36,595 bases of DNA from Actinomycetota bacterium (GCA_009885805.1 VFJZ01000021.1:1-36595); one strand, 5' to 3'. Shown: positions 3,560 through 26,604, numbered from the stretch's first letter. Notes: generated from the letters alone by a model not told the origin. Program-made: numbers and translations.

Positions 3560-5068
3560 CTAAGCCGGTGCTGGCTCGTCGGTCGTCGCAAGCGTACGCT
3601 CAAGCCGGTGGTAGGTTGCCGTCAACCCATCCCGGACATCGGCGTAGATCGGCATGAGCCGCCCGTAGAGCGCACTGGATGCTGGATCTGGTTCGACTGT
3701 TCCGATCGGGCGGGCACACGCGGCCACGGCCTCGTCGAGGTTGGCGAACGTTCTCGTACCGATGCCGGCGAGCATCGCAGCACCGAGCGCTGCGTCCCGC
3801 GAATCGAAGAGCTGGAGTGGGCGGTCGAGCACCGAGGCGAGGATCGAGCGCCACAGGGCGCTGCGGGAGCCTCCTCCTGTCAGTCGCAGCTCGATCGCCG
3901 GGCCAGCGAGTTGCTCGGCGGCGTCGAGGCACTCGCGCACCGAGAATGCGACCCCCTCGAGCACGGCACGTGCCAGATGCGCCCAACCGTGGCCGGCCTG
4001 GAGCCCGACGAAGCTGGCGCGCAAGTACGGATCCCAGTGCGGCGAGCGCTCACCCGAGAGATAGGGATGAAACACGACACCGCCCGCACCAGGAGGCACA
4101 CTGATGGCAGCGGCGTCAATCTCCTCGTACGTCGGCCGAGTCGATCCCGGGGAGATCTGATCACGGAACCACCGGATGCTCGCCGCAGCCGAACTGGTCG
4201 CCAGGCACGTATACCAGAGGTCATCTGCGACGTATGGATATGTCAGCGAGACGGCGGACGGCGCCGGGACTTGTGTGATGATATTCACTGTGCCGGATGT
4301 GGCGAGCTTCACGGCCGCGTGGCCAGGCCGACACGCACCAACGGCGAGGCTCTCTGCCGCGGTGTCGGATGTACCGACGACCACAGGAATGCCCACTGGC
4401 AACCCGAACGCAGCGGCAGCAGCAGCCGTCACAAAGCCGGCGACCGTGTGGGCTCCTCGGACGGTCGGAAGTGCTGCCGGCTCAAGCGGGATGAGAGCGC
4501 AAAGGGTCGGCGAGAATTTCCCACGGCGGGCGTCGTAGAGAAGCGTTCCCTGGGCATCGGCCGGATCGGTGAACTCGTCGCCGGTCAGCGCTCGGCGGAC
4601 GAAGTCCTTCGTGAAGACCACGCGCCGTGTGGACGTCAGGACTGCGGGCTCGTGGGTCGCGATCCACCGTAGCTGGGAGAGCGTCCAGGTCGGCGAAGGT
4701 CGGTGCATCCCGATCGAGAAGATCCGCGCGCCGTCGCTGCGCTGAAGGTCCTCGGCCTCGGCAGCACTGCGCGTGTCCGTCCACATGATCGCCGGGCGGA
4801 GAGCGCGTCCGCGCTCGTCCAGCAGTGCCGCGTTATGGGTAGAGGCAGTGAGCCCGACGGCGTCGACCCGTCTAACGACTTCGGAATCGAGGCGACGGAC
4901 CGCCATCACCGCGGCGGCCAGCCAGTCATCCGGATGCTGCTCCGCCCAGCCCGGGTGCGGACGACTGGTCGCGATCTCAACCGCGGCCGAGCAAAGCACC
5001 GTGCCGCTGGGGTCGACCACCACGGCCTTGCAGCTCCCCGTTCCAATGTCGACGCCGAGCAAACCCAT
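3560..5068 (-). CDS. FGGY-family carbohydrate kinase (xylulokinase-like)
   Basis: 502 residues, normal for an FGGY kinase. The N-terminal phosphate-binding motif is LLGVDIGTGSCKAVVVD. WAEQHPDDW and MWTDTRS match the substrate-side motifs of xylulokinase-like members. GTSDTAAESLAVG carries the likely catalytic Asp. LTGGGSRSALWRSILASVL is the C-terminal FGGY signature. The enzyme would use ATP to phosphorylate a pentulose, hexulose or polyol in the cytoplasm. It is the last gene of the minus-strand catabolic run, 41 bp after the regulator gene. It probably makes the phosphorylated intermediate cleaved by the aldolase encoded at 18524. The natural substrate is unknown. Confidence in the family is high. 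Confidence 0.92.
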   Translation of the reverse strand: MGLLGVDIGTGSCKAVVVDPSGTVLCSAAVEIATSRPHPGWAEQHPDDWLAAAVMAVRRLDSEVVRRVDAVGLTASTHNAALLDERGRALRPAIMWTDTRSAAEAEDLQRSDGARIFSIGMHRPSPTWTLSQLRWIATHEPAVLTSTRRVVFTKDFVRRALTGDEFTDPADAQGTLLYDARRGKFSPTLCALIPLEPAALPTVRGAHTVAGFVTAAAAAAFGLPVGIPVVVGTSDTAAESLAVGACRPGHAAVKLATSGTVNIITQVPAPSAVSLTYPYVADDLWYTCLATSSAAASIRWFRDQISPGSTRPTYEEIDAAAISVPPGAGGVVFHPYLSGERSPHWDPYLRASFVGLQAGHGWAHLARAVLEGVAFSVRECLDAAEQLAGPAIELRLTGGGSRSALWRSILASVLDRPLQLFDSRDAALGAAMLAGIGTRTFANLDEAVAACARPIGTVEPDPASSALYGRLMPIYADVRDGLTATYHRLERTLATTDEPAPA

Positions 5069-5109: not shown

Positions 5110-5703
5110 TCAGAAGCTTCGCTTGGAGTTGACCCAGATGTACTCAGTCACCTGATCTTGCAGGGCATTCGCCATGCGGTGCGGCGTCGTCGACGGAAAC
5201 CAGACCGTGTCGCCTTCGTCGAGGAAGTAGATCTCGTCGCCGACCCAGACCTTCAGGCGACCGCGCAAGACGATCCCCCACTCCTCGCCCTCGTGCGAAA
5301 TAGCATCGGGGCCCATCGACGCTCCCGGGTCGTACCGGCCGAACAGGGGCTCGAGCTCCGAGTCATGCTCCGGCCCGAGCAGCTCGAATTCGATCCCGCG
5401 GCCCACCACCGGCTGGCGAATCCGGCGCCGTTTGTCCGACCTTACGACCCAGCCGGGATCGACGTCTGTCTCGGAGAAGAAGTACGTGAGGTTGACGTCC
5501 AGGGCCGTCGCGAGTCGCTTGAGCATGGTGATCGACGGCTCGACCTTCCCCCGCTCGACATCGGAAATTGTCGACGTCGAGACACCGGAGAGCGCCGCGA
5601 GTTGACGCATCGAGAATCGATGGAGGGTACGGAGGTCGCGAAGCTTCTCGGCGATGCCGTGCTCGTCGTGAAAGCCGTTGTTTTCTGCGTGAGCGGTCGT
5701 CAC
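5110..5703 (-). CDS. XRE-family regulator with C-terminal cupin (PuuR-like)
   Basis: 197 residues. An N-terminal XRE helix-turn-helix (IAEKLRDLRTLHRFSMRQLA, then SGVSTSTISDVERGKVEPS) covers about residues 18-75. A cupin_2 domain follows at about 115-190, with HEGEEWGIVLRGRLKVWVGD and STTPHRMAN. This architecture is that of small-molecule-sensing repressors such as PuuR, which controls putrescine use. That fits the Pot-type importer in the same run. I chose GTG 5703 (AAGG five bases upstream) because the longer frame to 5790 adds a Cys/Arg-rich stretch unlike the family. It is the best candidate for the protein binding the palindrome at 20663-20678 or the inverted repeat at 5764-5780. Confidence 0.88.
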   Translation of the reverse strand: MTTAHAENNGFHDEHGIAEKLRDLRTLHRFSMRQLAALSGVSTSTISDVERGKVEPSITMLKRLATALDVNLTYFFSETDVDPGWVVRSDKRRRIRQPVVGRGIEFELLGPEHDSELEPLFGRYDPGASMGPDAISHEGEEWGIVLRGRLKVWVGDEIYFLDEGDTVWFPSTTPHRMANALQDQVTEYIWVNSKRSF

Positions 5704-5763
5704 GATGCCTTGGCCCTCACTTAGCGTCCTTCCCCCCGAACAAAGCGTACAGGAGGCACGGTC

Positions 5764-5780
5764 CGGCAGCGTAGCTGCCG
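5764..5780. promoter_or_regulatory. Perfect inverted repeat upstream of the XRE-cupin gene
   Basis: CGGCAGC-GTA-GCTGCCG, with 7-bp arms and a 3-bp centre, lies 60 bp upstream of the regulator start and about 40 bp after the oxidoreductase stop. It could be an autoregulatory operator or an intercistronic RNA hairpin. No U-tract follows on the transcribed strand, so a classic terminator is unlikely. Confidence 0.45.
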
Positions 5781-5820
5781 ATCGGAACAACTCGCCCCGG
5801 GGCCGCGGGCACGCATCCGG

Positions 5821-6693
5821 TCACCCTTCCGACGCGGTCGACCCGACTTTCGGCGGTCCGGCAGCGACCACGCGCCGGTACTCGCTCAGCGAACCTGACG
5901 GAGGTGCCGCCTCGAGCCACCACGTGAGGCCAGCCGCCGCATACTGGCGGAACTGCTCGTCGAGGCCGGCTTCGACAAGCTGCTCCAGCTGCCCGGCGAG
6001 CACGATGTCGTATGGACATGAGCTGGTCCGGCGGCCGTCGATGAACTCGCGCATCTCAACGACCTCCTCCGGCGTGGCGACCCAGTCGGTGCCATTCGGA
6101 AAGACGCCATCCCAGCGCGCAGCTCTCTGAAATGGCCGTTGCCGCGGCCAATAGCCGGCAACCCAGATTGGGATGCGGGGCGTCTGGACAGGTGGAGGGA
6201 GGAACGTCCGCTCGGCGACCGTGTAGTGGGTGCCCTGGAACGAAAACGGCTCCCCGCTCCACAACCCGACGATGACCTCGAGCGCCTCGTCGAGCATCTC
6301 GGCACGTACCTTCGGGTCCGGGTCCTCGCCGAAGCCTGCGAACTCCTTCTCCGGCTGCCAACCAAGGCCGACCCCGAGCACGAGGCGGCCACCCGACAGC
6401 TGATCGAGCGTGACCGCCTCGCGAGCGACCTTCCACGGGCGCCGCCGGGCGAGCGGTGTTACGAGCGGCCCGAGCATGACCCGCTCGGTCGCCGCCGCGA
6501 CTGCCGCGAGGATGATCCATGGGTCGCCGACGGGCTGGACAGATGGCGTCTCCCAGAGGAGGTGATCCCACAGGAACACGCCTTCCCAGCCAGCACCCTC
6601 GGCCAGGACGGCGAGCTCTGCAACCGCCCGCGGATCGGCGTAATCGCCGAAGTTTGGAAGGTACAGGCCGAAGCGAATGCTGCTGTCGCTCAT
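5821..6693 (-). CDS. LLM-class (luciferase-like) flavin/F420 oxidoreductase
   Basis: 290 residues with a bacterial-luciferase-like TIM barrel. Visible landmarks are FGLYLPNFGDYADP at the start, GWEGVFLWDHLLW, the VMLGPLVTPLARRRPWKVA segment, and LDQLSGGRLVLGVGLGWQ, the diagnostic LLM motif before the flavin pocket. Actinobacterial relatives often use F420 rather than FMN; the sequence does not decide this. The start ATG overlaps the SDR stop codon (ATGA), so the two are translationally coupled. In this context it may oxidise or reduce a pathway intermediate, but no substrate can be named. Confidence 0.88.
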   Translation of the reverse strand: MSDSSIRFGLYLPNFGDYADPRAVAELAVLAEGAGWEGVFLWDHLLWETPSVQPVGDPWIILAAVAAATERVMLGPLVTPLARRRPWKVAREAVTLDQLSGGRLVLGVGLGWQPEKEFAGFGEDPDPKVRAEMLDEALEVIVGLWSGEPFSFQGTHYTVAERTFLPPPVQTPRIPIWVAGYWPRQRPFQRAARWDGVFPNGTDWVATPEEVVEMREFIDGRRTSSCPYDIVLAGQLEQLVEAGLDEQFRQYAAAGLTWWLEAAPPSGSLSEYRRVVAAGPPKVGSTASEG

Positions 6694-7454
6694 GGCATTG
6701 GCGCCATTGCGGTCTGGCCGCCGTCGACGAAGATCGTAGTCCCCGTGAGATAGTCGGGCGCATCAAGAGCGAGGTACTCGATGACGTTCGCGACTTCGTC
6801 TGGCTCGCCGACCCGACCGAGCATATTGAGTCGTGAAAGGGATTCCTGGGTCGCCGTCTGAAGAAAGTCGTCGACCATCGCGGTGTGCACCCAGCCGGGC
6901 GCAATCGCGTTGACGCGGACGCCGTCAGCGGCGAGGTCGAGCGCGAGTGACCTCGCGAGAGAGCTGACTCCCGCCTTTGCCGCGCTGTAGTGCGCCGACT
7001 CCGGCTCGGAAACCGGGCTGTTGACCGAGGAGATCAGGACCATCCGGCCCGCGCCGGCAGCCTTCATCACGCGCGCTGCAGCCGCGCCGACATACGCGAC
7101 GGAGTCGAGTGTTGTGCTCATGGTGCGGCGCCACGCGGCGGCGTCCATCTCGGTGATGGCCACTGGTTCGTAGATGCCGGCGCAATTGATGCAGACATCG
7201 AGCCCGCCGAACTCCTCGGACGCCGCCTGAACGAGGGCGTTCGCCGCAACGTCGTCCCCGGCGTCGGCCGGGTGGATGGCGATCACGGCGCCCGGCACCC
7301 GGGAACGGACAGCTGCGGCCGCCTCCTCGAGCACGGCGACGCGGCGGCCGGAAATCATGACATGCGCCCCACGGCGCGCGAGCCGCTCGGCTGCAGCGCG
7401 CCCCATGCCCGTCCCTCCGCCGACGATGAGAGCTCCGGTCGGTCGATCGGTCAT
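6690..7454 (-). CDS. SDR-family oxidoreductase
   Basis: 254 residues, a classical short-chain dehydrogenase. The nucleotide-binding loop is ALIVGGGTGMGRAAAERLA, with a G-x-x-x-G-x-G pattern. CINCAGIYE replaces the usual NNAG, LISSVNS holds the catalytic Ser, and YSAAKAG is the Tyr-x-x-x-Lys pair. It ends with YLTGTTIFVDGGQTA, the usual SDR tail. It oxidises or reduces a hydroxyl or keto group with NAD(P). It overlaps the oxidoreductase gene by 4 bp and follows the B12 mutase gene by 10 bp. It is not closely related to the other two SDRs here, which resemble each other, so it probably handles a different intermediate, perhaps the mutase product. Confidence 0.9.
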   Translation of the reverse strand: MTDRPTGALIVGGGTGMGRAAAERLARRGAHVMISGRRVAVLEEAAAAVRSRVPGAVIAIHPADAGDDVAANALVQAASEEFGGLDVCINCAGIYEPVAITEMDAAAWRRTMSTTLDSVAYVGAAAARVMKAAGAGRMVLISSVNSPVSEPESAHYSAAKAGVSSLARSLALDLAADGVRVNAIAPGWVHTAMVDDFLQTATQESLSRLNMLGRVGEPDEVANVIEYLALDAPDYLTGTTIFVDGGQTAMAPMP

Positions 7455-7464
7455 CTCCGCCTCC

Positions 7465-9216
7465 TTACGCGCGGTCTGCGACCGCCGGCCGGAGCCGTGC
7501 GATCATGTGTTCGAGAGTGGGACACGGCACCAGTCCATCGGCGGCGAGCCGTTCGGAGACGTCGACGCTGCGGCCACCGTCGACGTCCTCTGTGAGGCGG
7601 CCGCCAACGAAGAGCGGGGCCGTCAGGCCTCGCCGCGCAGCACGTGCGGCGAGGTCTCGACCCAGCGTGAGCGCCATGCCGTTGTACGTGCTGAGAGCGA
7701 CCGCATCGGCGGCCGTCTCCGCGGCGGCCTGGATGATCAGGTCGTTGTCGACGCTCGTACCGAGGTCGACGACGTTGGCGCCCAGCTCTCGGAGCACGTT
7801 GGCGACCACCCACAGTCCGTACTCGTGGATATCGCCGGACGCGACGACGATCGTCAGTCCGAGGAGATCCGGGCGCTCGTGGAGATTCGCGAGGACGCCG
7901 CTCTGTCTGTCGCGGAGGCGCCTGAGGGTGTCGGTCTCCGCGACCGGCTTGAAGCCGCGGGGGTAGGCGGTGTCGGGCTCGCCGGCGCCCCACATCTCCT
8001 CGATACGGGCGGCGCCGAGCCGACGGGTGGCAAGCAGGCACTGGAGCGGGTCGTTCGTGTCGACGCCGAGCTCCGTGAGGCCGGCCATCATCGCTGCCAG
8101 GACCGTGCGACCACCGCGCACGATCTCATCCCGAAGGGCGTGGGCTGGACGCCAGTCGACCAGGTGCAGCGCCTCTCGGGCGCGGCGTTCAGCCTCGTTG
8201 CCGATCTCAAGTGACTGGACGACATCCTCGATGGTGGGGATCCGGTGGGGTTCCGAGAGGGGCGTGGCGTGGACCGCCGCGCCGGTCGGGTGCGCTAGCT
8301 GGCTCGCGATCGTGAAGAAGACGTCGTTGGCGACGATCACGGCGCTGCGGTCGAACGAGTCTTCGAGACGGAGCGAGTTGGTGTCGCCGTGCACGAGGGA
8401 TGGTGGCACCTTCTCGGGATTGATCGCGTCCATCGCTAGGCCGTACGCGGCCTTAAGCGTCGGATCGGCGAATGTCGATCCGTAGCTCGGCGCGTGCGCG
8501 GCGCCGATCAGATGCGACGCGACGTGGTGGTGGAACATGCACCACGCTAGCGAGGTCGCGGCATCGTGAAACGTCGCGCAAAAGCCATCGTCGATGTACG
8601 AGTCTAGGACAACACCGTTGCCGCGATGCGCCGCGACGATGCCGATCGCCTCGACGGTCTGTGCCATTTGCTCAACGTCGTCGGAGACACCCGGATAGCC
8701 GTACGACATCTGCGCGAGGTTTCCGACATAGGAGATCCCGGCGCGGATCGCCGCCTCGGCGTTGACCACCGACGCAGGACTCCCCACTGCGTGGTCGTTC
8801 AGGATGCCCTGGACGTCGACCTCGGAACCGGTCCCGGCCCAGTCGGTTTCGCTCCAGAACATGATGCCGGTCTCCTCGATCGCCGACGCCCGCTGCGCCG
8901 GGGGCAGGCCCATGCGGCGGTCGGCGGTCAGCGAGACGCGATCGACCCTGAGGCCGCCACGATGGCGACACGCCGCTTCGATCTCGAGGAGTGCGTCGCG
9001 CGTCTCCGGCCAGGTCTTGAGGCCGAGGTTGATGTAGTACGTGATGGTGCCGTCGGCCTTCGCACGCTCTTTGTACTCCCGCTCTGACTGGACACCATGT
9101 CGGCGCTGGTAGCGGGTCGATCCAGCGGGGATGGCTCTTCCACGCTGCCACCCGCGTCTTGCCAGCATGCGGCCGTCGGGAAGTCCTTGCGGTAGCAGCG
9201 AATCGAAGTCAGGCAC
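7465..9216 (-). CDS. Adenosylcobalamin-dependent mutase, glutamate-mutase-like, with fused B12 domain
   Basis: 583 residues. The C-terminal ~130 residues form a cobalamin-binding domain: GDIHEYGLWVVANVLREL carries the D-x-H-x-x-G base-off/His-on motif at 462-467, with the lower-ligand His at 464. VALSTYNGMAL and LFVGGRL match the later B12-binding loops. The N-terminal ~440 residues are distantly glutamate-mutase-epsilon-like (TIM-barrel expected), for example SYVGNLAQMSYGYPG and FHDAATSLAWCMFHHH. In known glutamate mutases these parts are separate subunits (E/epsilon and S/sigma); here they are one chain. The product would catalyse a radical carbon-skeleton rearrangement. The gene overlaps the GlmL-type reactivase gene by 8 bp, strong support for a working B12 mutase. 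The substrate need not be glutamate given the sugar-like operon. The E-domain assignment is the weaker part. Confidence 0.78.
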   Translation of the reverse strand: MPDFDSLLPQGLPDGRMLARRGWQRGRAIPAGSTRYQRRHGVQSEREYKERAKADGTITYYINLGLKTWPETRDALLEIEAACRHRGGLRVDRVSLTADRRMGLPPAQRASAIEETGIMFWSETDWAGTGSEVDVQGILNDHAVGSPASVVNAEAAIRAGISYVGNLAQMSYGYPGVSDDVEQMAQTVEAIGIVAAHRGNGVVLDSYIDDGFCATFHDAATSLAWCMFHHHVASHLIGAAHAPSYGSTFADPTLKAAYGLAMDAINPEKVPPSLVHGDTNSLRLEDSFDRSAVIVANDVFFTIASQLAHPTGAAVHATPLSEPHRIPTIEDVVQSLEIGNEAERRAREALHLVDWRPAHALRDEIVRGGRTVLAAMMAGLTELGVDTNDPLQCLLATRRLGAARIEEMWGAGEPDTAYPRGFKPVAETDTLRRLRDRQSGVLANLHERPDLLGLTIVVASGDIHEYGLWVVANVLRELGANVVDLGTSVDNDLIIQAAAETAADAVALSTYNGMALTLGRDLAARAARRGLTAPLFVGGRLTEDVDGGRSVDVSERLAADGLVPCPTLEHMIARLRPAVADRA

Positions 9217-10522
9217 AGGTCATCACGTCGAGAGCGAGTTCGAGTTGCAGGAGGCGTGCGGCGCGGGCGCGATCGCCGGCGGCCGCGAGTAGCCCGGCGG
9301 CCGCGACGACGTACTGGGAGTCGACGCGGACGCGCGGATTCGTCGCAAGGAGGGCGTTGCGGTCTCGACCTCGTTGCCAGGCTCCGGCCGCGATGGCGAC
9401 GGGATCCTCGGCGTGCTCAAAGATTCCTCCAGTGGCGACGAACACGACCGCCGAGCGGAGGTCGCGACCGGTGGGACGCAGGCTGGCGCCACCCTCCTCG
9501 AGAGTTACGGCAAGCTGGCCGGCGTGTCGCTCGAGCGCGATGGTGATTGCAAGGCCGGCGAGCTCCGCATCGAGACGACGCTCGGTCGAATCCGTCGATA
9601 CGTCGGCTGGCTCCGCGACACGGCGGGCGGCTGCAACCACGAGTCGCTCCTCGTCCTCAGCCGCAACCAGGCCGGCATCGATCGACGCCTCGACGAGGGC
9701 AGCGGCGCTGCTCCGTAGCCCGAGGTCACCCTCGACGGTGCGCGTCATCCGTTCGGCCGGGACCGGCCCGGGGCGCCCCTCGCACATCGCGGAGTGGACG
9801 TCGGTCGTGGCGCCGCCGACATCGCACACCACCACCGAAGTCCCGAGGAGCGTCGAGAGGAGCTCCGTCGCGCTAAGCACGGCCGCCGGCGTAGGCATCC
9901 GGATGATCGGCTCGAGCGACGCGGCGTCGGGAAAGCGCCCGACGCGGATCACGTGGTCGGCGAAGAGACTTCTGATCGCAGCATTCGCGGGCGCGGCGGC
10001 GAGCAATCCGATCCGCGGCAGGACATTCGCAACGACGCGCACCAGCGGTGCACCGGCGAGCGCACGCGATGCTTCGTCCGCCGCGTCGGCGTTCGCGGCG
10101 ATCACCACAGCGGCGCCAAGCTGCAGGCGGCGCAGCGCGTGAGCGTTCTCGATCACGTTCTTTCGCTCGCCCCCGTCCGTCCCTCCCGTTAGCAGCACCA
10201 GGTCAGGCGCCGCATCGGTGAGGCTGGCTCCAAGATCGCGGTCGATGGCGCCGGCGATGGTCGCGACGACGCGCCCGCCCGAGCCGTGTGCGACTCGCCG
10301 CGCCGCCTCCACGGTGAGTCGCGACTCGAGTCCGACCACGGCGATCCTCAGACCACCGCCGGCGCTGGAGCATGCGTGGTCGAGAGTGTCGGCGTGGCTG
10401 TGCAACTCGGCAACGAGCCCTGGTTGGGACGTCGGAATCCGCGCGCGCCGGATCACGGCTCCGCGCTCGTCGACGACGGTCAGCTTCGCCCACGTGCTGC
10501 CAACATCGACGAGCGCGGCCAT
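9209..10522 (-). CDS. GlmL/MutL-family ATPase, mutase reactivase or chaperone
   Basis: About 437 residues of the ASKHA (actin/Hsp70) ATPase fold, GlmL type. AALVDVGSTWAKLTVVD is phosphate loop 1, VLLTGGTDGGERKN is a GlmL hallmark, and VVCDVGGATTDVHSAM is phosphate loop 2. GlmL-type proteins accompany glutamate mutase and its relatives and are thought to maintain or reactivate the B12 enzyme after loss of cofactor. I chose ATG 10522 over GTG 10531 because homologues begin right at this strand and GGAG lies 8 bases upstream. The gene lies just upstream of its presumed client on the mRNA. Confidence 0.85.
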   Translation of the reverse strand: MAALVDVGSTWAKLTVVDERGAVIRRARIPTSQPGLVAELHSHADTLDHACSSAGGGLRIAVVGLESRLTVEAARRVAHGSGGRVVATIAGAIDRDLGASLTDAAPDLVLLTGGTDGGERKNVIENAHALRRLQLGAAVVIAANADAADEASRALAGAPLVRVVANVLPRIGLLAAAPANAAIRSLFADHVIRVGRFPDAASLEPIIRMPTPAAVLSATELLSTLLGTSVVVCDVGGATTDVHSAMCEGRPGPVPAERMTRTVEGDLGLRSSAAALVEASIDAGLVAAEDEERLVVAAARRVAEPADVSTDSTERRLDAELAGLAITIALERHAGQLAVTLEEGGASLRPTGRDLRSAVVFVATGGIFEHAEDPVAIAAGAWQRGRDRNALLATNPRVRVDSQYVVAAAGLLAAAGDRARAARLLQLELALDVMTCA

Positions 10523-10527
10523 ACGGG

Positions 10528-11307
10528 TCACTCCATTACCATGCCGCCGGTGATGTTGACGGCCTGGCCGGTCATCTCGGAGGCGTCGTCCGATGCTAGG
10601 AAGAGGACGAGACGCGCGACGTGCTCGGGTTCCTGGAAGCGACCCATCGGGATGCCCGACAGCCAGCGCGCCTGGATCGAGGCCCTCGACTCGCCTGTCA
10701 TGGCCTCCTCCCAGGCGTACTCCCGCTCCATCATGTCGGTGTTCACAACGCCGGGGCAGACGCAGTTGATGCGGACGTGTGGTGCGACCTCGAGCGCGGC
10801 GCCCTTGGACAGCAGGATCACAGCGGCCTTCGACGCGCAGTAGTGCGTGAAGAGCCGGTAGCCGCGCTTGCCCGCCTGGCTGGCGACGTTCACGATCGCA
10901 CCGGACTTGCGCTCAAGCATGTGCGGTAGGACCGCGCGCATGCACAGGAACGTGCCCTTTGCGTTTACGTCGAGGTTCGAGTCCCAGTCCTCTTCGCTCA
11001 GTTCGATCAGGGGACGCATCGTGATGACGCCGGCATTGTTGATCAGATGGTCGACCTTCCCGTGCCTCTCGAGCGTGGTGGCAACCATCCTTTCGACGTC
11101 GGCGGCGCTCGTGACGTTGCAGTCGACCGCGCTGACCACGCCTCGCCCGCCGTCGATCTCCGAAGCGGTGGCCGCGGCCTTCTCGCCGTTCAGGTCAGCG
11201 AGCACGACGCTTGCTCCCTCGTCGACGAACGCCGAGGCGATCGCCCGACCCATGCCCTGAGCACCGCCCGTGACGATGACCGAGCGACCGTCAAACCTGT
11301 TACCCAT
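10528..11307 (-). CDS. SDR-family polyol/sugar dehydrogenase
   Basis: 259 residues. Cofactor loop VIVTGGAQGMGRAIASAF, NNAGVI, catalytic Ser in IVNVASQAGKRGY, and Tyr/Lys in HYCASKAAV. The tail MTGQAVNITGGMVME is nearly the same as that of the SDR encoded at 22112-22891 (SGEALNVSGGMVMD), and CVCPGVVNTDMMEREYAWEE parallels it too. The two are clear paralogues, and both resemble sorbitol/galactitol-type SDRs. The enzyme would interconvert a secondary alcohol and a ketone of a polyol or sugar acid. The start ATG 11307 has GAGGGG five bases upstream and lies 8 bp after the hydrolase stop; the open frame further upstream is antisense noise. Confidence 0.9.
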   Translation of the reverse strand: MGNRFDGRSVIVTGGAQGMGRAIASAFVDEGASVVLADLNGEKAAATASEIDGGRGVVSAVDCNVTSAADVERMVATTLERHGKVDHLINNAGVITMRPLIELSEEDWDSNLDVNAKGTFLCMRAVLPHMLERKSGAIVNVASQAGKRGYRLFTHYCASKAAVILLSKGAALEVAPHVRINCVCPGVVNTDMMEREYAWEEAMTGESRASIQARWLSGIPMGRFQEPEHVARLVLFLASDDASEMTGQAVNITGGMVME

Positions 11308-11315
11308 GGTGCCCC

Positions 11316-12173
11316 TCACGCCTTGTTCCAATGCTCGCGCACCTTGATCTCGACAGGCACCGTCTTGAGCTCCTCGATCGCCCCTGCCAGGTGCTCGGCG
11401 AAACGATCGAAGATGGCCTCGCCCTTCTCGGCGGTGGCACGCAACGGGTTGCCGATGACCCCGTCCTTGGCGAACTCGTTGTGATCCATCGGGAAGTAGA
11501 AGTACTCGTAGCCCCTGTACGCCGCGTCCCAGGCGCCGTCGTCCTTCGAGAAGCCCTCGGGCAGCCACTCCGGCGCCTTCGCCCGAGAGTTCTTCGCACG
11601 GTCCATCCGTACCAGTCGCTCGTCGTAGGCGAGCATGATCGAGGTCTCCTGCTCTGAGGCATGCCAGCCCGGGGTCTCCTCCGGCGGATTCTCCATCAGG
11701 TCCTCGATCAGGCCGAGGTAACGCTCGCCGTAGGGCTTAAACATTGCGATCAGCGCGCCGGTCTCGTACCGGAGCCGGCGCATGATCGGGTCGGTCACCT
11801 TGACGTTGGACGTGTGACCGTTGACGAAGATCAGCCGGTTGAAGCCATGATGGATGAGGCACTTCGAAAGGTCGTAGAGGACCTCGACGTACGTGCTGGC
11901 CCGCAGCGTGATCGTGCCCATGCCCGACTCGGGCTCTCGCAGATGCTGCGGTGAGTAACCGAGCCAGAGCGGCGGCGCGTACGGCACGTCGGCGATGGCC
12001 GCGGCCCGCTTGCAGACCTCGTGAGCATTGAAGACGTCCGTCCCGAGCGGGAGGTGGTCACCATGCATTTCGCACGAGCCGATCGGGACGAGGATGACAT
12101 CCGACTTGTCCAGAAACGCCCGGATGTCCGGCGGGGCGAGGTCGAGCAGGCAGTGCGAGGGCAGTTTGGTCAC
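11316..12173 (-). CDS. Creatininase-family hydrolase (candidate diketo-cyclitol ring opener)
   Basis: 285 residues. EMHGDHLPLGTD (E35, H37, D46), VNGHTSN (H120) and WHASEQETS (E174/E176) are the metal-binding motifs of the creatininase fold. Family members hydrolyse C-N bonds in cyclic amides, but a member is also known, as I recall, as the IolN hydrolase of Thermotoga inositol catabolism, which opens a diketo-inositol ring. The gene is followed upstream on the mRNA by a Gfo/Idh dehydrogenase and an IolM-like dehydrogenase. That neighbourhood favours ring opening of an oxidised cyclitol or lactone over creatinine use. The start overlaps the Gfo/Idh stop (ATGA). Family firm, reaction inferred. 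Confidence 0.9.
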   Translation of the reverse strand: MTKLPSHCLLDLAPPDIRAFLDKSDVILVPIGSCEMHGDHLPLGTDVFNAHEVCKRAAAIADVPYAPPLWLGYSPQHLREPESGMGTITLRASTYVEVLYDLSKCLIHHGFNRLIFVNGHTSNVKVTDPIMRRLRYETGALIAMFKPYGERYLGLIEDLMENPPEETPGWHASEQETSIMLAYDERLVRMDRAKNSRAKAPEWLPEGFSKDDGAWDAAYRGYEYFYFPMDHNEFAKDGVIGNPLRATAEKGEAIFDRFAEHLAGAIEELKTVPVEIKVREHWNKA

Positions 12174-13180
12174 GAAAGCTCCTTCCGACGATGATCGTCA
12201 GGTAGTGGGGTGTGATGGAGGGCGGCCGCTTCGACCATCTCGATCGCGCGGAGATTTCCGAGCGTGAAGGACTCGGACACGGTGGGCGGGGCAGTGCCGC
12301 GGATGGCTCTGCAGAGGTTCTCGATCTCGAGCTCGTAGCTGTTGCGGCCCGGGCAGAGGTGCTCCTCAACTGAGCCGTCGTCGCGGCGAACGTGCACCGC
12401 TTGTGGCGGCTTGTGCGCGTACCACGGCGTCGGGACGTCGAGGATGCCCGTGCTGCCGACCACCGTGAACCCGTAGCTGAGCGGCGAGCGGAGAGACACG
12501 TCGAACAGCCCGACGACGCCGGACGGGAAGGCGACGAGGCCATACGTGCGCTCGTCGACGCCGCCCGATGTGCGAACCTGATGGGCGAGCGCGCTGACGG
12601 GCTCTTCCCCGATCACGAGCCTCATGAACCCGAGGCAGTAACACCCGAGGTCGCGAAGTGCTCCGCCGCCGAGATCGGCCCGCAGCCGGATGTCGCTGCC
12701 GGGATCGCCGACCGTGAACGAGAACGACGTCCGCACGGCCTGGACATTGCCGATATCACCGGAGCCGATCAGGTCGAGCACCTTCGCGGTCTGCGGATGG
12801 TGCCGGTACATGAAGGCCTCCATCAGCACCCGGCCGTGCTCCCGCGCAGCGTCGAACAACTCAACGGCATCGGCCTCACGCACCGTCAACGGCTTCTCGC
12901 AGAGCACGTGCTTGCCGGCCCGCAGCGCAGCGAGTGTCCACTCCCGGTGCAGCGAGTTCGGCAGCGAGATGTAGACAGCGTCGACGCCAGGATCGGCCAG
13001 GAGCGCCTCGTACGAGCCGTGGGCGCACGGGATCCCCTTCTCCGCGGCGTAGCTCCTGGCGCGATCCGCCGTGCGGCTGGCGACCGCGACGAGCTCCGCA
13101 TCCGCGACCGCGGCGAAGCCCGGCAGCAGTTCGTCGTTGATCTGAGCCGTCGAGACGATGCCCCAACGAATCGGCGCCAC
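12170..13180 (-). CDS. Gfo/Idh/MocA-family dehydrogenase
   Basis: 336 residues. An N-terminal Rossmann domain (IRWGIVSTAQINDELLPGF), then VYISLPNSLHREWTLAALRA and GKHVLCEKPLTVREA. The E-K-P motif with the catalytic Lys is the family signature. A C-terminal alpha/beta domain follows, with LGGGALRDLGCYCLGF. It resembles the D-xylose 1-dehydrogenase and dihydrodiol-dehydrogenase branch (WGI-x-T-A) more than classical inositol 2-dehydrogenase (IolG). It probably oxidises a ring hydroxyl of a sugar or cyclitol with NAD(P). It sits between the creatininase-like and zinc-dehydrogenase genes, starting 1 bp after the latter's stop. Confidence 0.9.
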   Translation of the reverse strand: MAPIRWGIVSTAQINDELLPGFAAVADAELVAVASRTADRARSYAAEKGIPCAHGSYEALLADPGVDAVYISLPNSLHREWTLAALRAGKHVLCEKPLTVREADAVELFDAAREHGRVLMEAFMYRHHPQTAKVLDLIGSGDIGNVQAVRTSFSFTVGDPGSDIRLRADLGGGALRDLGCYCLGFMRLVIGEEPVSALAHQVRTSGGVDERTYGLVAFPSGVVGLFDVSLRSPLSYGFTVVGSTGILDVPTPWYAHKPPQAVHVRRDDGSVEEHLCPGRNSYELEIENLCRAIRGTAPPTVSESFTLGNLRAIEMVEAAALHHTPLPDDHRRKELS

Positions 13181-13181
13181 G

Positions 13182-14345
13182 TCACATCCCCGGCTTGATC
13201 AAAATCTTCCCGTCCTTGCGATCGCTGGTACCGGCGAGCGCCCTCACCATCGCGTCGAGACCGACGCGCTTCGTGACGGCATGCTCCATCTCGATCCGGC
13301 CCGAAGCCATGAGCGCGATCACGTTCGGGAAGTTCCATCCGCCGCAGTGCCCGACGGTGCCGTAGATGGCGGCGGCGGAGAGTTGGTGACGGATCAGGTT
13401 GAGCGTGGCCGGGCGGGCGTCCATGCCAACCACCGCGACCTTGGCGCCGACGCCGAGGCAGTCCTCAATCGACCCCATGACGGCCTGGAAGTTGCCCGAC
13501 GCCTCGACGATCATCGAAGCGCCGCGCCCGTGCGTGCGCTCGCGCACGACATCGGCCACGTTCTGCGCCATCGGGTCGACCGAGGCGTCCGCGCCGCACG
13601 CCTCGGCGAGAGCCCGCCGCTCCGGGACGGTCTCGGCGCAGACCACGGTCGACGCACCCGCTGCGCGCGCGAGCGCGCAAGCCGCCAGCCCGATCGGCCC
13701 GGCGCCGAACACGACCACGCCCCCGCCCGGCTTGAACCCCCCTGCGCGCGTGAACATACCCTCGTACACGACACTCGTGGGCTCGGACATCGACCCGATC
13801 TCGAGCGCCGTCTCGACATCGCTGTACCGCTCGAGCAGGGCATTCAGGCTCCAACAAGCCTTCTCCGGGACCTTCACGAACTCGGCGAACCCGCCGTCGA
13901 TAGTGAACCCGAGGTCCTCGATGTGAGCGCACTGGTTGGGATACCCGCCGCGGCATGCCACGCACGACCCGCACCACTGGATTTCCTCGACCGTGACGAG
14001 GTCTCCCTTCTTGAAGTCGGAGACTTCCGAGCCGATCTCGACGACCGTGCCGGCGAACTCATGCCCGCCGACGACAGGGCAGCGCATGTGGTACGGCAAC
14101 AGCATGTAGCCGAGGTCGTCGGTCTCGTACATGTGTACGTCCGACCCGCAGATGCCGCACGCGCCGACCTGGACGATCAGCTCCTTCGGGCCAGGTCCGG
14201 TAGGATCGGCGATCGTCGTCATCTCGATCTTGGGCGACCGGTAGACCTGGTTGGCGTTGACGGCCCACCGACGGGCGGCGTCCGCCGGATCGATCACGGC
14301 CTCGGGGCGCGGGGCCCACTCGGCATCGACCACGATGGCTTTCAT
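13182..14345 (-). CDS. Zinc-dependent dehydrogenase, scyllo-inosose 3-dehydrogenase-like
   Basis: 387 residues, medium-chain dehydrogenase. Catalytic zinc ligands are C66 in GACGICGSDVHM and H95/E96 in VVGGHEFAG; structural zinc cysteines are at 125, 128, 131 and 139. The Rossmann motif is VVFGAGPIGLAACALA. The long N-terminus MKAIVVDAEWAPRPE, the GSDVHMYETDDLGYMLLP stretch and WCGSCVACRGGYPNQCAHIE strongly recall the Thermotoga scyllo-inosose 3-dehydrogenase (IolM, TM0412) as I remember it. That enzyme makes a diketo-inositol from scyllo-inosose. Together with the adjacent creatininase-fold hydrolase gene this suggests cyclitol ring oxidation and opening. MDR family certain; IolM-like subgroup likely. 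Confidence 0.88.
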   Translation of the reverse strand: MKAIVVDAEWAPRPEAVIDPADAARRWAVNANQVYRSPKIEMTTIADPTGPGPKELIVQVGACGICGSDVHMYETDDLGYMLLPYHMRCPVVGGHEFAGTVVEIGSEVSDFKKGDLVTVEEIQWCGSCVACRGGYPNQCAHIEDLGFTIDGGFAEFVKVPEKACWSLNALLERYSDVETALEIGSMSEPTSVVYEGMFTRAGGFKPGGGVVVFGAGPIGLAACALARAAGASTVVCAETVPERRALAEACGADASVDPMAQNVADVVRERTHGRGASMIVEASGNFQAVMGSIEDCLGVGAKVAVVGMDARPATLNLIRHQLSAAAIYGTVGHCGGWNFPNVIALMASGRIEMEHAVTKRVGLDAMVRALAGTSDRKDGKILIKPGM

Positions 14346-14346
14346 G

Positions 14347-15225
14347 TCAGGGGGTCCTCTCGTAAGTCAGCGCAAGTACGTTGGTCTGAGCGGGCTGCTC
14401 GATAGGTGGGGCGCTCGTCGGCGCGTTGCGGCGATGTGGCCGCCAGCCGCTCAGCAGCACGGCGGCCAGCACGATCAGCACCAGTGACACCGCCGCGATG
14501 AGCGTAAAGACGGCGTTGACCTCGGGCGTGAACCCAAACCGCAACAGCGTCCACACGTGGACAGGGAGCGTGGGCTGCACGCCGCTAAGGAAGAAGGTTA
14601 CGGTGATCTCGTCGAACGAAAGCGTGAAGCCGAGTAGGCACGCGGCGATCACAGTCACGCGGATCGACGGTAGCGTCACGTGCCAGAACGTACGCAGTCG
14701 GCCGGCACCGCAGTCCATCGAGGCCTGCTCGAGGGACGGGTCGAGCTGGCGCAATCGGCTCAGGATCAGGAACATCACGATCGGCGCGATGAAGCTCATG
14801 TGACCGACGACGATCGTCGTGAAGCCAGGCGACACTCCGATGTACCGGAACATCATCAGCAGCGACAGGGCGAGCACCATGCCAGGCAGCACCGCCGGCA
14901 CCACGACCGCGGCGCTCAGGACGCCCTTGCCGCGGATCGCGACACGATCGAGGATCAGCGCCAAGACGGTTCCGAGCGTCGCCGCGAGGGCAACGGATAG
15001 CGCCGCGACCTTGAAGCTGTAGAGCAGAGCCTCACGCATTTGCACGTCGTTCGCGAGGTCCTCGTACCACACCGTCGTGAAGCCGCTGAACGGCAGCGTC
15101 TGGATGTCGGAATTGTTGAACGAGAACACGGCCGTGACCACGAGCGGCGCGTACAGAAAGACGTACACCACCGCCGCGCCGATCACGAACAGGCTCGACC
15201 AGGCCCGCGAGGCTACGCTAGTCAA
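14347..15225 (-). CDS. ABC transporter permease, PotC-type
   Basis: 292 residues with about six membrane segments, beginning LFVIGAAVVYVFLYAPLVV. The inner-membrane coupling motif is MDCGAGRLRTFWHVTLPSI (EAA-type loop). The start is TTG 15225, overlapping the other permease gene by 8 bp, with GGAGG six bases upstream. The open frame extends further, but those extra residues are arginine/serine-rich antisense-like sequence and the Shine-Dalgarno fixes the TTG. Spermidine/putrescine-type permeases (PotC) also carry many other organic solutes, so the substrate follows from the operon, not the family. Confidence 0.92.
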   Translation of the reverse strand: MTSVASRAWSSLFVIGAAVVYVFLYAPLVVTAVFSFNNSDIQTLPFSGFTTVWYEDLANDVQMREALLYSFKVAALSVALAATLGTVLALILDRVAIRGKGVLSAAVVVPAVLPGMVLALSLLMMFRYIGVSPGFTTIVVGHMSFIAPIVMFLILSRLRQLDPSLEQASMDCGAGRLRTFWHVTLPSIRVTVIAACLLGFTLSFDEITVTFFLSGVQPTLPVHVWTLLRFGFTPEVNAVFTLIAAVSLVLIVLAAVLLSGWRPHRRNAPTSAPPIEQPAQTNVLALTYERTP

Positions 15226-16123
15226 TGACGGCCTCCGTCCGGGCGAGGAGGGAGACGGCGCCGAGGAAGACGAATGACACCACGAGGATGACCATCGCGA
15301 TCGCGGCGCCGAGCGGCCAGTTGTTGGCCGTCCCGAACTCCTGCAGGATGATCGACCCGAGCATCGTCCCCTGGAGCCCGCCGACCAGGGCCGGCGTGAC
15401 GTAGTCGCCGAACGTGATGACGAACGCGATCGCGAACCCAATCACCGCCGCCGGGCGCGAGAGCGGCCAGATGATGTCGCGGAACGTCGACCACTCCGAC
15501 GCGCCGCAGTCACCGGCCGCATCGTAGAGCGCCGTCGGGAGGCGCTCGAGCGCCGTGAAGATCGACAGGAACACGTACGGGACGGCGACGTAAGTGAGCG
15601 TCAGGATGACGGTCACTTTCGAGTAAAGCAGCGCCTTGATCGGGTGATCGATGACGCCGGCCTGCTGCAGGAGTCCGTTCAGGACGCCCTTCTCGCCGAG
15701 GATGATCTTCCAGGCGAACACGCGCATCAGGTACGACACCCACAGCGGCACCACAACGAGCAGCGCGAGCGGCAGTTTGTACCGGCCGGCGCGCCGCACG
15801 ATCAGATAGGCGAGCGGGTACGCGATCGCGGTTGCGATCAGCGAGGCGGCGACGGCGATCAGGAACGTGCGCTGGAGCAGAGCGCGCACAACATTCGACT
15901 GCAGAGCCTGGCTGTAGTTCTTGGTCGTGAACTCCTGGATGATCGTGCCGAGGCCGTTCGTCCAAAAGCTGTAGAGGAGCATGATCGCGTTCGGGATCAG
16001 GACGATCAGCAGCACCCACAGCAGTGCCGGCGACGCCAGTCCCACACGGATCCCGGCCGCCTTGGCGCGCTCACCGAGCGGCTCCTCGATCGCCCCTCCA
16101 CTCCACTCGGAAGCGGCGCTCAT
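15218..16123 (-). CDS. ABC transporter permease, PotB-type
   Basis: 301 residues. A 30-residue cytoplasmic N-terminus, then [20 protein letters not shown] and five more hydrophobic segments. The EAA loop is [40 protein letters not shown] and [10 protein letters not shown] are typical of PotB-like permeases. The start overlaps the ATPase stop (ATGA) with GGAG upstream, so this is tightly coupled translation. It pairs with the PotC-type permease in the inner membrane. Confidence 0.93.
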
Positions 16124-17247
16124 GGCGCCTGCTCCGCTGGATCGACAACGACCACACAGGCCTCAGCCGGCCAGCCGACGCGGATGGGCGTCCCGGCTTC
16201 GAGCACGACGTTGGACGCCGCCTTCGCCAGCAGGGTCTGGCCGCTCACCTCGACGATCAGCTCTCGCTCTGAACCGAGGAAAATGGTCTCCCGCACGATG
16301 CCGTCGAAGGTGTTCGCGGCGCCTTCTGCCGCCTCCGCGAGCAGGATCGACTCGGGGCGGATGGACACCTTGAACTGCTCGGCCGCCGGTGTCGTCGCGA
16401 GCCGCAGGGCAAGCCCGCCGGCGCGCACCGCGCCGGTCGCGTCACGCTCCGCGTCAACCAGATTCGTCTTGCCAATGAAACTCGCGACGAAGGTCGTCTT
16501 CGGCCGGAAGTAGACCTCGTCGGGCGCGCCGGTCTGGTGAATTCGACCGTCGTGCATGACGGCCAGGCGGTCGGACATCGCGAGTGCCTCGCCCTGGTCG
16601 TGGGTGACGTACACGAACGTGATCCCGACCTCGCGCTGGAGGCGCTTCAGCATCAGCTGCATCGACTGGCGGAGCTTCAGGTCGAGCGCGCCGAGCGGTT
16701 CGTCGAGCAGCACCAGGGCGGGGCGCGAGATGAGGGCGCGCGCGAGCGCGACCCGCTGCCGCTGCCCGCCGGACAGCTGGTGCGGGAGGCGCCTCTCAAA
16801 CCCCGTCATACCAACGCGGTCGAGCGCCTCCGAGACCCTGCTAGCAGTCTCGGCCTTGCCGACGCTGCGGAACTTCAGGGGATAGGCAACATTGTCGGCG
16901 ACCCGCATGTGCGGGAACAGCGCGTAGTTCTGGAATACCGTGTTGACGTCGCGCTTGTACGGCGGCAGCTTCGTCACGTCGCGGCCCGCCAGGCGGACGC
17001 AGCCGACGGTCGGCCGCTCGAACCCGGCGATCATCCGCAACGTGGTCGTCTTGCCGCTGCCCGACGGGCCGAGGAGGGCGAAGAACTCGCCCTCCTCGAC
17101 CGTCAGGGTGACGTCGGCGACCGCGGCGTCGCGCGTATTCGGGTATACCTTGGAAACGCCGACGAGCTCGACGACGGAGCGACCCGATCGCGACACCCGG
17201 TCAGGCGGGACCAGGTCTCCAACCGGCGACCCGACATCTGGGCTCAT
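16120..17247 (-). CDS. ABC transporter ATP-binding protein, PotA-type
   Basis: 375 residues from the ATG at 17247. Walker [11 protein letters not shown]-loop [12 protein letters not shown], signature [15 protein letters not shown], Walker [13 protein letters not shown], and the H-loop [10 protein letters not shown]-terminal TOBE-type domain follows ([12 protein letters not shown]-like segment [17 protein letters not shown]). This is the domain order of carbohydrate/polyamine-type ATPases. GGAGG lies five bases before ATG 17247; the GTG 12 bases upstream (17259) overlaps that site and is unlikely. It powers the importer with the two permeases and the binding protein. Confidence 0.94.
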
Positions 17248-17265
17248 CGGTGCCTCCACGCTCGA

Positions 17266-18501
17266 CTATCCGATCCCGAGCTTGAATTCGTTCCAGGTGT
17301 CGAGGCGCTTCTGGAGGTCCTCGACGGCCTTGAAGAAGATCATCTTCGAGAAGAAGGCGTCACCCGCCTGTGTGTCGGGGATCTGCGTGATCTTCAGCTT
17401 GTCCGCGGAAAGCCCGGCCGCAACCGCTTCCGGGGACGTGGCCAGATCGAACGGCAGCACGCCGTTGTTGCCGGTCGCGCCCGCGAACCGAGCCTGGAAC
17501 GGCACTGCGATGCTGGCGTTGATCCACTCGTAGACGGCGTCGAGCTTCTTGGCGCCGGCCGCCTTGGTGATAGCGGCGTTGTCGCTCCAGGCCGGCGTGC
17601 CCTGGATTGGGACGGTCTGCTTGGCCTGGATGTTCTTAGCGTTCAGGTCGACGACGACCTGGATGATGTTCAGATAGCCGATCACGGCCTCACCGGACGC
17701 GAACTGGTTCACCTGGTCGTTGAATCCGGATGTGAGGCGCTTGACCTGCGGGCGCAGCTCGAACAGCTTCTGCCGGAACTGCTCGAACTGCGCGTCGTCG
17801 AGCTGGTACGGATCGGGGAAGCCGAGCGCCAGCGGGATCATCGGCTGAACCGAGGTCGGGTCGTCGAACACGGAGACGAGCCCCTTGTACTTCGGATCCC
17901 AGAGCTCATTCCAGTCGGTCGGCGTACCCGTGACCTTGTCAGTGATCCACACCAGTGGCTGGTTGCCCCAGTTGTAGAGGACGCCGTAGTTCTGGCCGCC
18001 GATGCTGGTCGCATCGCGCCACGGGAAGGCGCTTGAGATCGAGCTGAGGTTCGCGACCTTGGTCTCATCGACCGGGATCACGAGATCGGCATTGACGTAC
18101 TGGTCGAACCAGCCGGCCGTGGCGTACACGATGTCGTACGCGTCTGGCGCGGCCTGCGTCTTCGCGAACATCTCCGCCGGCGAGCCGACGTTGGTCACGT
18201 TGACCTTAACACCGCTCTGCTTCTCGAACTCGTCGAGCCAGGGCTGCTGGTGGTAGCCCTCCCACGTGAGGATGTTGATGGTCTCGCCCGCGGACGATCC
18301 GCCCGAAGATGTCGCACCTGCGGCAGCGGTCGTCGCGCCACCGGACGTGCTCGAACCGCTGTCACCGCCGCACGCGGCTGCGAGGACGCCTAGGGCTCCG
18401 AGGCCCGCGACGGTACCACCCGCCCGTGCCAGGAAGCGGCGTCGGCTCAGCGCAAGCTCGAGTGCGCTGACGCTGCGTGTGAAATTGCTGTCTTCGGTCA
18501 T
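17266..18501 (-). CDS. ABC solute-binding lipoprotein, PotD-type, with Tat-like signal
   Basis: 411 residues. The signal segment has a twin-arginine motif, SRRRFLARAGG (residues 19-29), then a hydrophobic stretch ending in lipobox LAAAC (C44). It is probably exported by Tat and lipid-anchored, common for actinobacterial binding proteins. A Gly/Ser/Thr/Ala-rich linker follows, then INILTWEGYHQQPWLDEFEK, matching PotD-type proteins, and DPKYKGLVSVFDDP. The ligand is unknown; PotD-type proteins bind polyamines or other small solutes. The start ATG 18501 has GGAGGAG just upstream. The gene follows a perfect hairpin sequence at the aldolase stop, which could raise binding-protein expression. Confidence 0.92.
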   Translation of the reverse strand: MTEDSNFTRSVSALELALSRRRFLARAGGTVAGLGALGVLAAACGGDSGSSTSGGATTAAAGATSSGGSSAGETINILTWEGYHQQPWLDEFEKQSGVKVNVTNVGSPAEMFAKTQAAPDAYDIVYATAGWFDQYVNADLVIPVDETKVANLSSISSAFPWRDATSIGGQNYGVLYNWGNQPLVWITDKVTGTPTDWNELWDPKYKGLVSVFDDPTSVQPMIPLALGFPDPYQLDDAQFEQFRQKLFELRPQVKRLTSGFNDQVNQFASGEAVIGYLNIIQVVVDLNAKNIQAKQTVPIQGTPAWSDNAAITKAAGAKKLDAVYEWINASIAVPFQARFAGATGNNGVLPFDLATSPEAVAAGLSADKLKITQIPDTQAGDAFFSKMIFFKAVEDLQKRLDTWNEFKLGIG

Positions 18502-18519: not shown

Positions 18520-18538
18520 GCCGTCATGATGTGACGGC
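18520..18538 (-). promoter_or_regulatory. Intercistronic hairpin at the aldolase/binding-protein junction
   Basis: Perfect inverted repeat GCCGTCA-TGATG-TGACGGC, 7-bp arms and a 5-nt loop, spanning the aldolase stop codon and lying about 20 bp upstream of the solute-binding-protein start. Hairpins here often stabilise or process the mRNA and let binding protein outnumber the other subunits. No U-tract follows, so it is not a strong terminator. Confidence 0.55.
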
Positions 18539-20751: not shown

Positions 20752-20856
20752 CTGGCCTCGCATGCCATGGTGCATTACGCGCCGGACGAGCAACCGGAGA
20801 TGCCGGACTGCGTCCGGGCAGGCGGACAGCACGAGTATCGTGCGAAGGAGGTCGAA

Positions 20857-21867: not shown

Positions 21868-22115
21868 ACCGCGATGTCCTGCTCCCAAAGTGGGGCGTCA
21901 CGATGCAGGAGGCGACGGTGCTCACCTGGTTCAAGATCGCCGGCGACGTCGTCGCAGCGGACGAAGTGATCGCCGTCGTCGAAACGGACAAGGTCAACGG
22001 CGAGATCCTGGCACCGTGGAGCGGGAGGATCGTCGAGCTCGTTGCCGCCGAGGGTGATGTCGTGCCGGTCGGCGGCCGCCTTGCCGTCCTCGACGTGGGC
22101 GAGGAGTTGCAGTGA
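21864..22115 (+). CDS. Stand-alone lipoyl-domain protein
   Basis: 83 residues, almost entirely one biotin/lipoyl attachment domain: VLLPKWGVTMQEATVLTWFK, then the lipoylation motif VVETDKVNGEI with Lys 43. The 3' part, SGRIVELVAAEGDVVPVGGR, completes the barrel. Normal E2 proteins of 2-oxoacid dehydrogenases add an E1/E3-binding domain and a ~230-residue acyltransferase; none is present and the stop at 22113 is clean. It may be a free lipoyl carrier for the E1 encoded downstream, reading acyl groups to an E2 elsewhere. GTG start overlaps the previous stop by 4 bp, and its own stop overlaps the next start by 4 bp. Confidence 0.9.
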   Translation: MNRDVLLPKWGVTMQEATVLTWFKIAGDVVAADEVIAVVETDKVNGEILAPWSGRIVELVAAEGDVVPVGGRLAVLDVGEELQ

Positions 22116-22891: not shown

Positions 22892-22902
22892 AAGAAGCGG
22901 AG

Positions 22903-23883: not shown

Positions 23884-23885
23884 AC

Positions 23886-26603: not shown

Positions 26604-26604
26604 C

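Follow-up and report, generated by a model that had tools for sequence, protein, structure and literature searches.

A probable fused B12-dependent mutase encoded beside a GlmL-type ATPase

We analysed a 36,595-nt stretch of DNA from an Actinomycetota bacterium (GCA_009885805.1, VFJZ01000021.1:1-36595; hereafter the window), which constitutes an entire contig (C38) of a 3.56 Mb genome in 101 contigs and derives from a relative of Solirubrobacter. Its minus strand carries a gene for a 583-residue protein in which a barrel and a B12-binding domain are joined, flanked by genes for a GlmL/MutL-family ATPase and a short-chain dehydrogenase (SDR). We consider it likely that this protein is a fused radical mutase dependent on adenosylcobalamin (AdoCbl), with a GlmE-type barrel and a GlmS-type B12 domain in one chain, and that it belongs to a cassette added to an existing catabolic operon. 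The central features are:

7465..9216, minus strand: fused mutase, putatively AdoCbl-dependent, 583 amino acids; residues 12-440 GlmE-like TIM barrel, residues 450-582 GlmS-like B12 Rossmann domain
9209..10531, minus strand: GlmL/MutL-family ATPase, presumed reactivase (PF13941, TIGR01319; only copy in the genome)
6690..7454, minus strand: SDR1, short-chain dehydrogenase directly downstream of the mutase (profile match and synteny)

A first-pass annotation of this DNA had assigned a B12-binding domain with the motif D-I-H-E-Y-G at residues 462-467 to the 7465-9216 gene, and this was confirmed: Pfam PF02310 matches residues 456-541 (E 1.4e-13), and residues 460-470 read SGDIHEYGLWV, giving D462-I-H464-E-Y-G467. 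The same domain missed the NCBIfam GlmS equivalog cut-off. Residues 1-440 matched no Pfam or NCBIfam model. The glutamate mutase family Met_asp_mut_E (PF06368) was matched neither by the mutase nor anywhere in the genome; the MM_CoA_mutase family was absent among the Pfam and NCBIfam matches of the mutase, as was the helical cap domain PF02607 among its Pfam matches.

An AlphaFold2 model of the mutase from 13 relatives (pLDDT 87.8, pTM 0.90) placed GlmE as the nearest solved fold to the barrel (residues 12-440; Z 28.0, 3.6 Å over 367 residues, 11-12% identity), which bears out the earlier description of a ~440-residue glutamate-mutase-E-like part. The next matches were lysine 5,6-aminomutase (Z 25.6), ornithine aminomutase (Z 20.8) and methylmalonyl-CoA mutase (about 20). 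Residues 450-582 were nearest to GlmS (Z 17.1, 2.3 Å over 128 residues, 27% identity).

The gene just upstream on the mRNA does encode a GlmL-type ATPase, as had been proposed. It matches MutL PF13941 over its full length (E 8e-101; 338 bits against a cut-off of 27) and clears the NCBIfam cut-off for the GlmL-family subfamily TIGR01319 (212.8 versus 204.05 bits), and it misses that of the methylaspartate-mutase GlmL equivalog NF040745 (298.9 versus 475 bits). We took its start at 10531, with 10522 as an alternative; it overlaps the mutase gene by 8 bp and the upstream SDR2 gene by 4 bp. Since it is the sole MutL-family gene in this genome, and since the genome has no PF06368 GlmE, no plausible client is left for it except this mutase or the paralog on contig C86 (L023). 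The genome additionally encodes a PduO-type adenosyltransferase (PF01923).

Relatives of the putative mutase in several phyla form an unnamed family

A single-sequence scan of the named genome contigs gave no match, and an alignment-based scan recovered 29 loci in them. Further matches were found in 12 of 349 genomes of the same class, 3 of 326 genomes of the phylum and 9 plasmid records. The family comprises at least 34 distinct sequences with 31-58% identity to the window mutase, and its annotated copies are mostly named 'cobalamin-dependent protein' or 'hypothetical protein'. Relatives occur in Actinomycetota, Pseudomonadota, Chloroflexota and Bacillota, the carriers being Actinomycetota, Alphaproteobacteria, Rhizobiales plasmids and metagenome-assembled genomes (MAGs) of Acidiferrobacteraceae, Chloroflexota and Clostridiales, although an individual MAG contig may have been assigned to the wrong taxon.

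In a maximum-likelihood tree, the window mutase groups with its orthologs at L016 and L017 (100/100) inside a clade of 17 entries (100/100). GlmL adjoins the mutase in 16 loci, all of them in this one monophyletic clade; at the lone entry without it (L021), the contig stops just past the mutase.

Several divergent members were also observed. The paralog in the same genome (L023, G000:C86, 9741-11441; 35-37% identity) has no adjoining GlmL and lies among genes for a Dpp-type importer, a Rieske oxygenase, a P450 and a PALP enzyme. The most divergent member, on a Clostridiales MAG contig (L041), consists of tandem mutase-family genes at 1-612 (cut at the contig end) and 1191-2966. A clade on Rhizobiales plasmids (L071-L075) has tryptophan for R100, glycine for E115 and no GlmL, usually with a pyrroline-5-carboxylate-reductase-like oxidoreductase in the vicinity, together with an importer for amino acids or branched-chain amino acids; this clade possibly acts on a different substrate.

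The mutase, GlmL and a dehydrogenase probably form a module separate from the polyol genes

The minus strand from 20645 to 3560 holds a single gene run, in which neighbouring genes overlap or are separated by short gaps. The order along the transcript is UPF0261, DeoC/LacD, PotD-A-B-C, IolM-type, GFO/MocA, creatininase-family, SDR2, GlmL, mutase, SDR1, luciferase-like (LLM), helix-turn-helix (HTH)-cupin and FGGY. The importer, kinase, aldolase and dehydrogenases listed as neighbours by the first-pass annotation are thus all present. The remaining genes of the run are:

19341..20645, minus strand: UPF0261 (Tm-1-like) protein; resident polyol cluster
18524..19354, minus strand: DeoC/LacD-family aldolase; resident polyol cluster
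14347..18501, minus strand: PotC, PotB, PotA and PotD, polyamine-type ABC importer (profile matches and synteny)
13182..14345, minus strand: IolM-type (scyllo-inosose 3-dehydrogenase) zinc alcohol dehydrogenase; resident polyol cluster (NF041097, 520 bits against a cut-off of 450)
12170..13180, minus strand: GFO/IDH/MocA dehydrogenase; resident polyol cluster
11316..12173, minus strand: creatininase-family hydrolase with weak similarity to IolN (3-dehydro-scyllo-inosose hydrolase); resident polyol cluster
10528..11307, minus strand: SDR2, short-chain dehydrogenase upstream of GlmL (profile match and synteny)
5821..6693, minus strand: luciferase-like (LLM) oxidoreductase; resident polyol cluster
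5110..5790, minus strand: HTH-cupin regulator, PuuR-like; resident polyol cluster
3560..5068, minus strand: FGGY sugar kinase

The two closest orthologous loci (L028 and L029, the same places as L016 and L017) retain the mutase (55-58% identity), GlmL (40%), SDR1 (50-53%, beside the Pot genes), SDR2 (38%) and PotDABC (45-59%). They are without sugar genes and instead carry a thiolase, a pseudo-glutamine synthetase, a gamma-glutamyl-ligase-like enzyme, a PuuD-like C26 hydrolase and a CoA-transferase, together with HyuA and HyuB-acetone-carboxylase-gamma (ketone-carboxylase-like) genes. At L016, 12776-15216, a glutamine-synthetase-like ligase lies beside a degenerate glutamine-synthetase-like protein (the match covers its last ~50 residues), an arrangement kept in two genomes. 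Elsewhere in the clade that carries GlmL, the mutase is commonly preceded directly by an SDR and followed by GlmL, with Pot-type, Dpp-type or amino-acid permeases close by and class III aminotransferases recurring. Pot-type importers also adjoin several alphaproteobacterial mutase loci, so that the proposed synteny search for the fused gene and GlmL next to Pot-type importers came out positive both there and at L028 and L029. Among more distant relatives, the neighbouring genes encode transporters (amino-acid permeases or importers of the Dpp, Liv or Pot type) or class III aminotransferases. The genes that accompany the mutase are those for GlmL and an SDR and, in many cases, for an importer of the Pot type.

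The reverse arrangement was found in a second genome (G346), in which contig L100 carries nearly the full set of polyol genes of the window (49-70% identity), with counterparts of IolM (65%), DeoC (60%), HTH-cupin (54%), PotD/C/B/A (55-61%), LLM (50%), GFO (49%), UPF0261 (50%), creatininase (70%), SDR2 (65%) and alcohol dehydrogenase (52%). Neither the mutase nor GlmL nor SDR1 is present on this contig, and the whole genome (87% complete) gave no mutase match. Because the orthologs keep the mutase without sugar genes and G346 has the polyol genes without the mutase, neither set depends on the other's presence, and the comparison with L100 favours viewing the window operon as a resident polyol- or cyclitol-type cluster into which an SDR1-mutase-GlmL cassette was inserted. 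The sugar/polyol operon setting given in the first-pass annotation therefore holds for the window, where the polyol genes and the mutase share a catabolic operon, but not as a bond between the two.

Three further loci in other genomes (L101, L102, L103) have the creatininase-family gene directly beside the UPF0261 gene with most of the remaining cluster absent, suggesting that these two may work together. Elsewhere in the window, a divergent plus-strand operon (20767-24860) encodes a zinc alcohol dehydrogenase, an 83-residue free-standing lipoyl-domain protein, an SDR, and the E1 alpha and beta subunits of a dehydrogenase of the 2-oxo-acid or acetoin type, beside which no gene for an E2 acyltransferase was seen. 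On a Neorhizobium plasmid (L072), homologs of E1 alpha/beta (41-45%) are likewise located in the vicinity of the mutase gene. On the minus strand at 24874-30813, NlpC/P60 and TraG-like ATPase genes lie among others that have no annotation; this region probably belongs to a conjugative or integrative element beside the catabolic cluster. No RNA family of Rfam was matched in the window, and hence no known cobalamin riboswitch lies there.

Conserved residues point away from glutamate and from a pyridoxal phosphate adduct

Both His464 and E322 are present in all 34 relatives, and the residues that are invariant or nearly so in the family are H464, E322, D141, D210, G211, T279, R325, T116, G117, N512 and G513. 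Residue mapping in the barrel relies on weak profile alignments and on strand order; the two best HHalign fragments, from a weak alignment, are co-linear with GlmE and place E322 on Glu330 and N63 on Arg66. E322 is thus probably the counterpart of Glu330 in glutamate mutase, Glu338 in ornithine aminomutase and Glu370 in methylmalonyl-CoA mutase, the putative Co-C-homolysis glutamate. A glutamate of the Glu330 type is a known electrostatic trigger of Co-C cleavage in this class of mutases (PMC4413051), and the role of the ribose-contacting glutamate in Co-C homolysis is also documented in PMC3958899.

The substrate side of the barrel apparently differs. The arginine claw of glutamate mutase binds the glycyl part through R66 and R149 and the acrylate carboxylate through R100, and the amine is held by E171 (PMC9545868). 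Among the 34 relatives, the R66 position is occupied by N, H or Q (tentative barrel alignment), the strand segment of R149 contains no arginine anywhere, and the loop and segment of E171 have no conserved glutamate. An arginine near R100 is possibly kept (27 of 32 relatives), and the invariant D141 sits in the strand where GlmE has R149 (family alignment, tentative register). The glutamate-binding site has apparently been lost; the exact register is uncertain, and the absence of arginine spans the whole R149 segment.

The lysine that binds pyridoxal phosphate (PLP) is Lys144 in the Rossmann domain of lysine 5,6-aminomutase, and Lys629 does the same job in ornithine aminomutase (PMC3958899). 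Residues 450-583 of the window mutase contain no lysine, and none is conserved there across the family, so that the PLP aldimine of the aminomutases cannot form in this domain. With R66, R149 and E171 lacking counterparts and the PLP lysine missing, the enzyme is probably neither a glutamate mutase nor a PLP-dependent aminomutase.

Alternative explanations

A natural E-S fusion of an ordinary glutamate (methylaspartate) mutase would account for the best fold (GlmE), the best B12 domain (GlmS) and the GlmL partner. Indeed, the window mutase shares with GlmES of Clostridium cochlearium (1cb7, 1i9c, 6h9e) and its GlmL the barrel fold, a DxHxxG B12 domain, a GlmL-family partner and, apparently, the Glu330-type residue. 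It differs, however, in being one chain rather than two subunits, in a barrel without significant sequence match, in the missing R66, R149 and E171, and in its SDR and Pot-type importer neighbours; PF06368 is unmatched, and the GlmS and GlmL equivalog cut-offs are missed. Failing both the sequence-family and active-site comparisons, the protein is not classed as a glutamate mutase, and we regard such a fusion as very improbable. We give similarly little credence to an aminomutase of the lysine 5,6 or ornithine 4,5 type that would depend on both PLP and B12, although the second-best fold match, the amine-type neighbours of the relatives and the occurrence of GlmL-related genes in ornithine degradation (NF040744) would suit it. 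OraE is likewise a barrel-Rossmann chain, but the B12 domain of the window mutase has no PLP lysine, and no gene for a small OraS-like subunit was seen adjoining. The methylmalonyl-CoA mutase family has in common with the window mutase the order of a barrel followed by a B12 Rossmann domain on one chain and, probably, the Glu370 position; in contrast, the window mutase is shorter, has no MM_CoA_mutase match in Pfam, and is accompanied by GlmL in place of the MeaB/MMAA G-protein chaperone. The combination of barrel and B12 domain also recalls corrinoid methyltransferases such as methionine synthase or the MtxBC systems, and the B12 domains of MetH and MtaC match as well; given the missing PF02607 cap, a barrel closest to mutases and a GlmL-family partner, this explanation is the least credible of those considered.

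Two other readings carry somewhat more weight. In the first-pass annotation, the enzyme was proposed to be a carbon-skeleton mutase acting on a sugar-derived acid; in its fuller form, the acid would derive from a sugar or cyclitol and be the product of the dehydrogenases, creatininase-family hydrolase and aldolase encoded nearby. The single minus-strand gene run argues for this idea, as does the similarity to the IolG-IolM-IolN ring-opening order of the Thermotoga-type myo-inositol pathway, with which the window shares an IolM equivalog over its curated cut-off and GFO/MocA and creatininase-family genes. The creatininase-family gene remains below the IolN cut-off (91 versus 245 bits), though, no IolO was identified, no IolD exceeds its cut-off in the genome, and a B12 mutase has no place in that pathway. 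(The canonical IolD-type inositol pathway was considered separately and dropped, as TIGR04377 was matched only below cut-off in the genome.) As the nearest orthologs retain mutase, GlmL, SDRs and importer without sugar genes, G346 has the sugar genes without mutase, GlmL or SDR1, and distant relatives have other transporters or class III aminotransferases as neighbours, the sugar-acid proposal is not supported, and we consider it unlikely. An AdoCbl eliminase of the amino-alcohol ammonia-lyase or diol-dehydratase type, in which the migrating group would be lost as ammonia or water and the SDR would take the resulting aldehyde or ketone, fits the amine or amino-acid substrates suggested by the relatives' neighbours (Pot, class III aminotransferase, gamma-glutamyl-ligase-like, PuuD-like), and the invariant D141 would suit a cationic group. 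Known eliminases, however, have another B12-binding architecture and other reactivases, and by its fold the protein comes closest to mutases whose Rossmann domain carries a DxHxxG motif; we judge an eliminase unlikely.

Several observations also weigh against a fused AdoCbl radical mutase with its own GlmL. HHalign of the barrel against three GlmE sequences, the profile comparison called for earlier, was not significant at any setting (E about 0.02-0.05, probability about 2%), which renders the residue correspondences in the barrel tentative. The remaining clades, made up of Solirubrobacter and its relatives, of Rhizobiales plasmids and of L041, have no GlmL beside the mutase, although the flanks of some are short. 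The DxHxxG motif is degenerate (G to A or V) in many members of these clades and in some members of the clade with GlmL, so that the function may not be the same throughout the family. The correlation between the distance matrices of GlmL and mutase (Mantel r 0.85; 0 of 2000 permutations), which speaks for their partnership, is partly due to shared species history. Lastly, at the given completeness of G346, the absence of a mutase there is not absolute.

Proposed mechanism and implications

Building upon the fold, the B12 motif, the GlmL partnership by genomics, the synteny, the modularity and the apparent loss of the glutamate and PLP sites, all computed here, we infer the cofactor form, the mode of AdoCbl binding, the reaction type, GlmL reactivation, the role of SDR1, Pot import and every substrate step as follows. 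The Pot-type importer would supply the parent compound. AdoCbl would be bound base-off with His464 as the lower ligand, and entry of the substrate into the barrel would lead to closure of the B12 domain. E322 may then hold the adenosyl ribose and thereby aid Co-C homolysis, after which the 5'-deoxyadenosyl radical would abstract a substrate hydrogen and a neighbouring group would move to the next carbon; the substrate itself is probably something other than glutamate or a PLP adduct. SDR1 would oxidise or reduce the substrate or product of the mutase, and GlmL would expel damaged cobalamin at the cost of ATP. In the window, the SDR1-mutase-GlmL unit probably lets a cyclitol- or polyol-type operon use a skeleton otherwise beyond its reach. 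As to the substrate, the neighbours of the relatives lean towards amine- or amino-acid-like compounds and the window itself towards polyols, and we make no confident choice between them.

Our literature search for a fused GlmL-associated mutase or an inositol-linked B12 mutase found no description among the papers searched, in keeping with the first-pass annotation, to which no described pathway of this kind was known. A fused B12 enzyme in an unnamed multi-phylum family without the glutamate-gripping residues probably carries out an undescribed B12 radical rearrangement; the family is new on a known catalytic platform, and its reaction is possibly new. We somewhat favour the view that the family uses an undescribed AdoCbl radical reaction to rearrange an imported, probably amine- or polyol-like compound before or after oxidation by the SDR, so that blocked or branched skeletons enter catabolism, and that the SDR-mutase-GlmL cassette moves between unrelated operons in at least three phyla. 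Members of the GlmL-free clades occur in cultured Solirubrobacter, Shinella, Phyllobacterium and Neorhizobium, which makes genetics possible for those clades. To our knowledge, only a small number of AdoCbl mutase reactions have been described. If our reading is correct, this family, which combines a conserved non-glutamate active site with a dedicated reactivase and with a dehydrogenase and an importer that recur beside it, would contribute a further AdoCbl reaction and point to unmapped catabolic routes.

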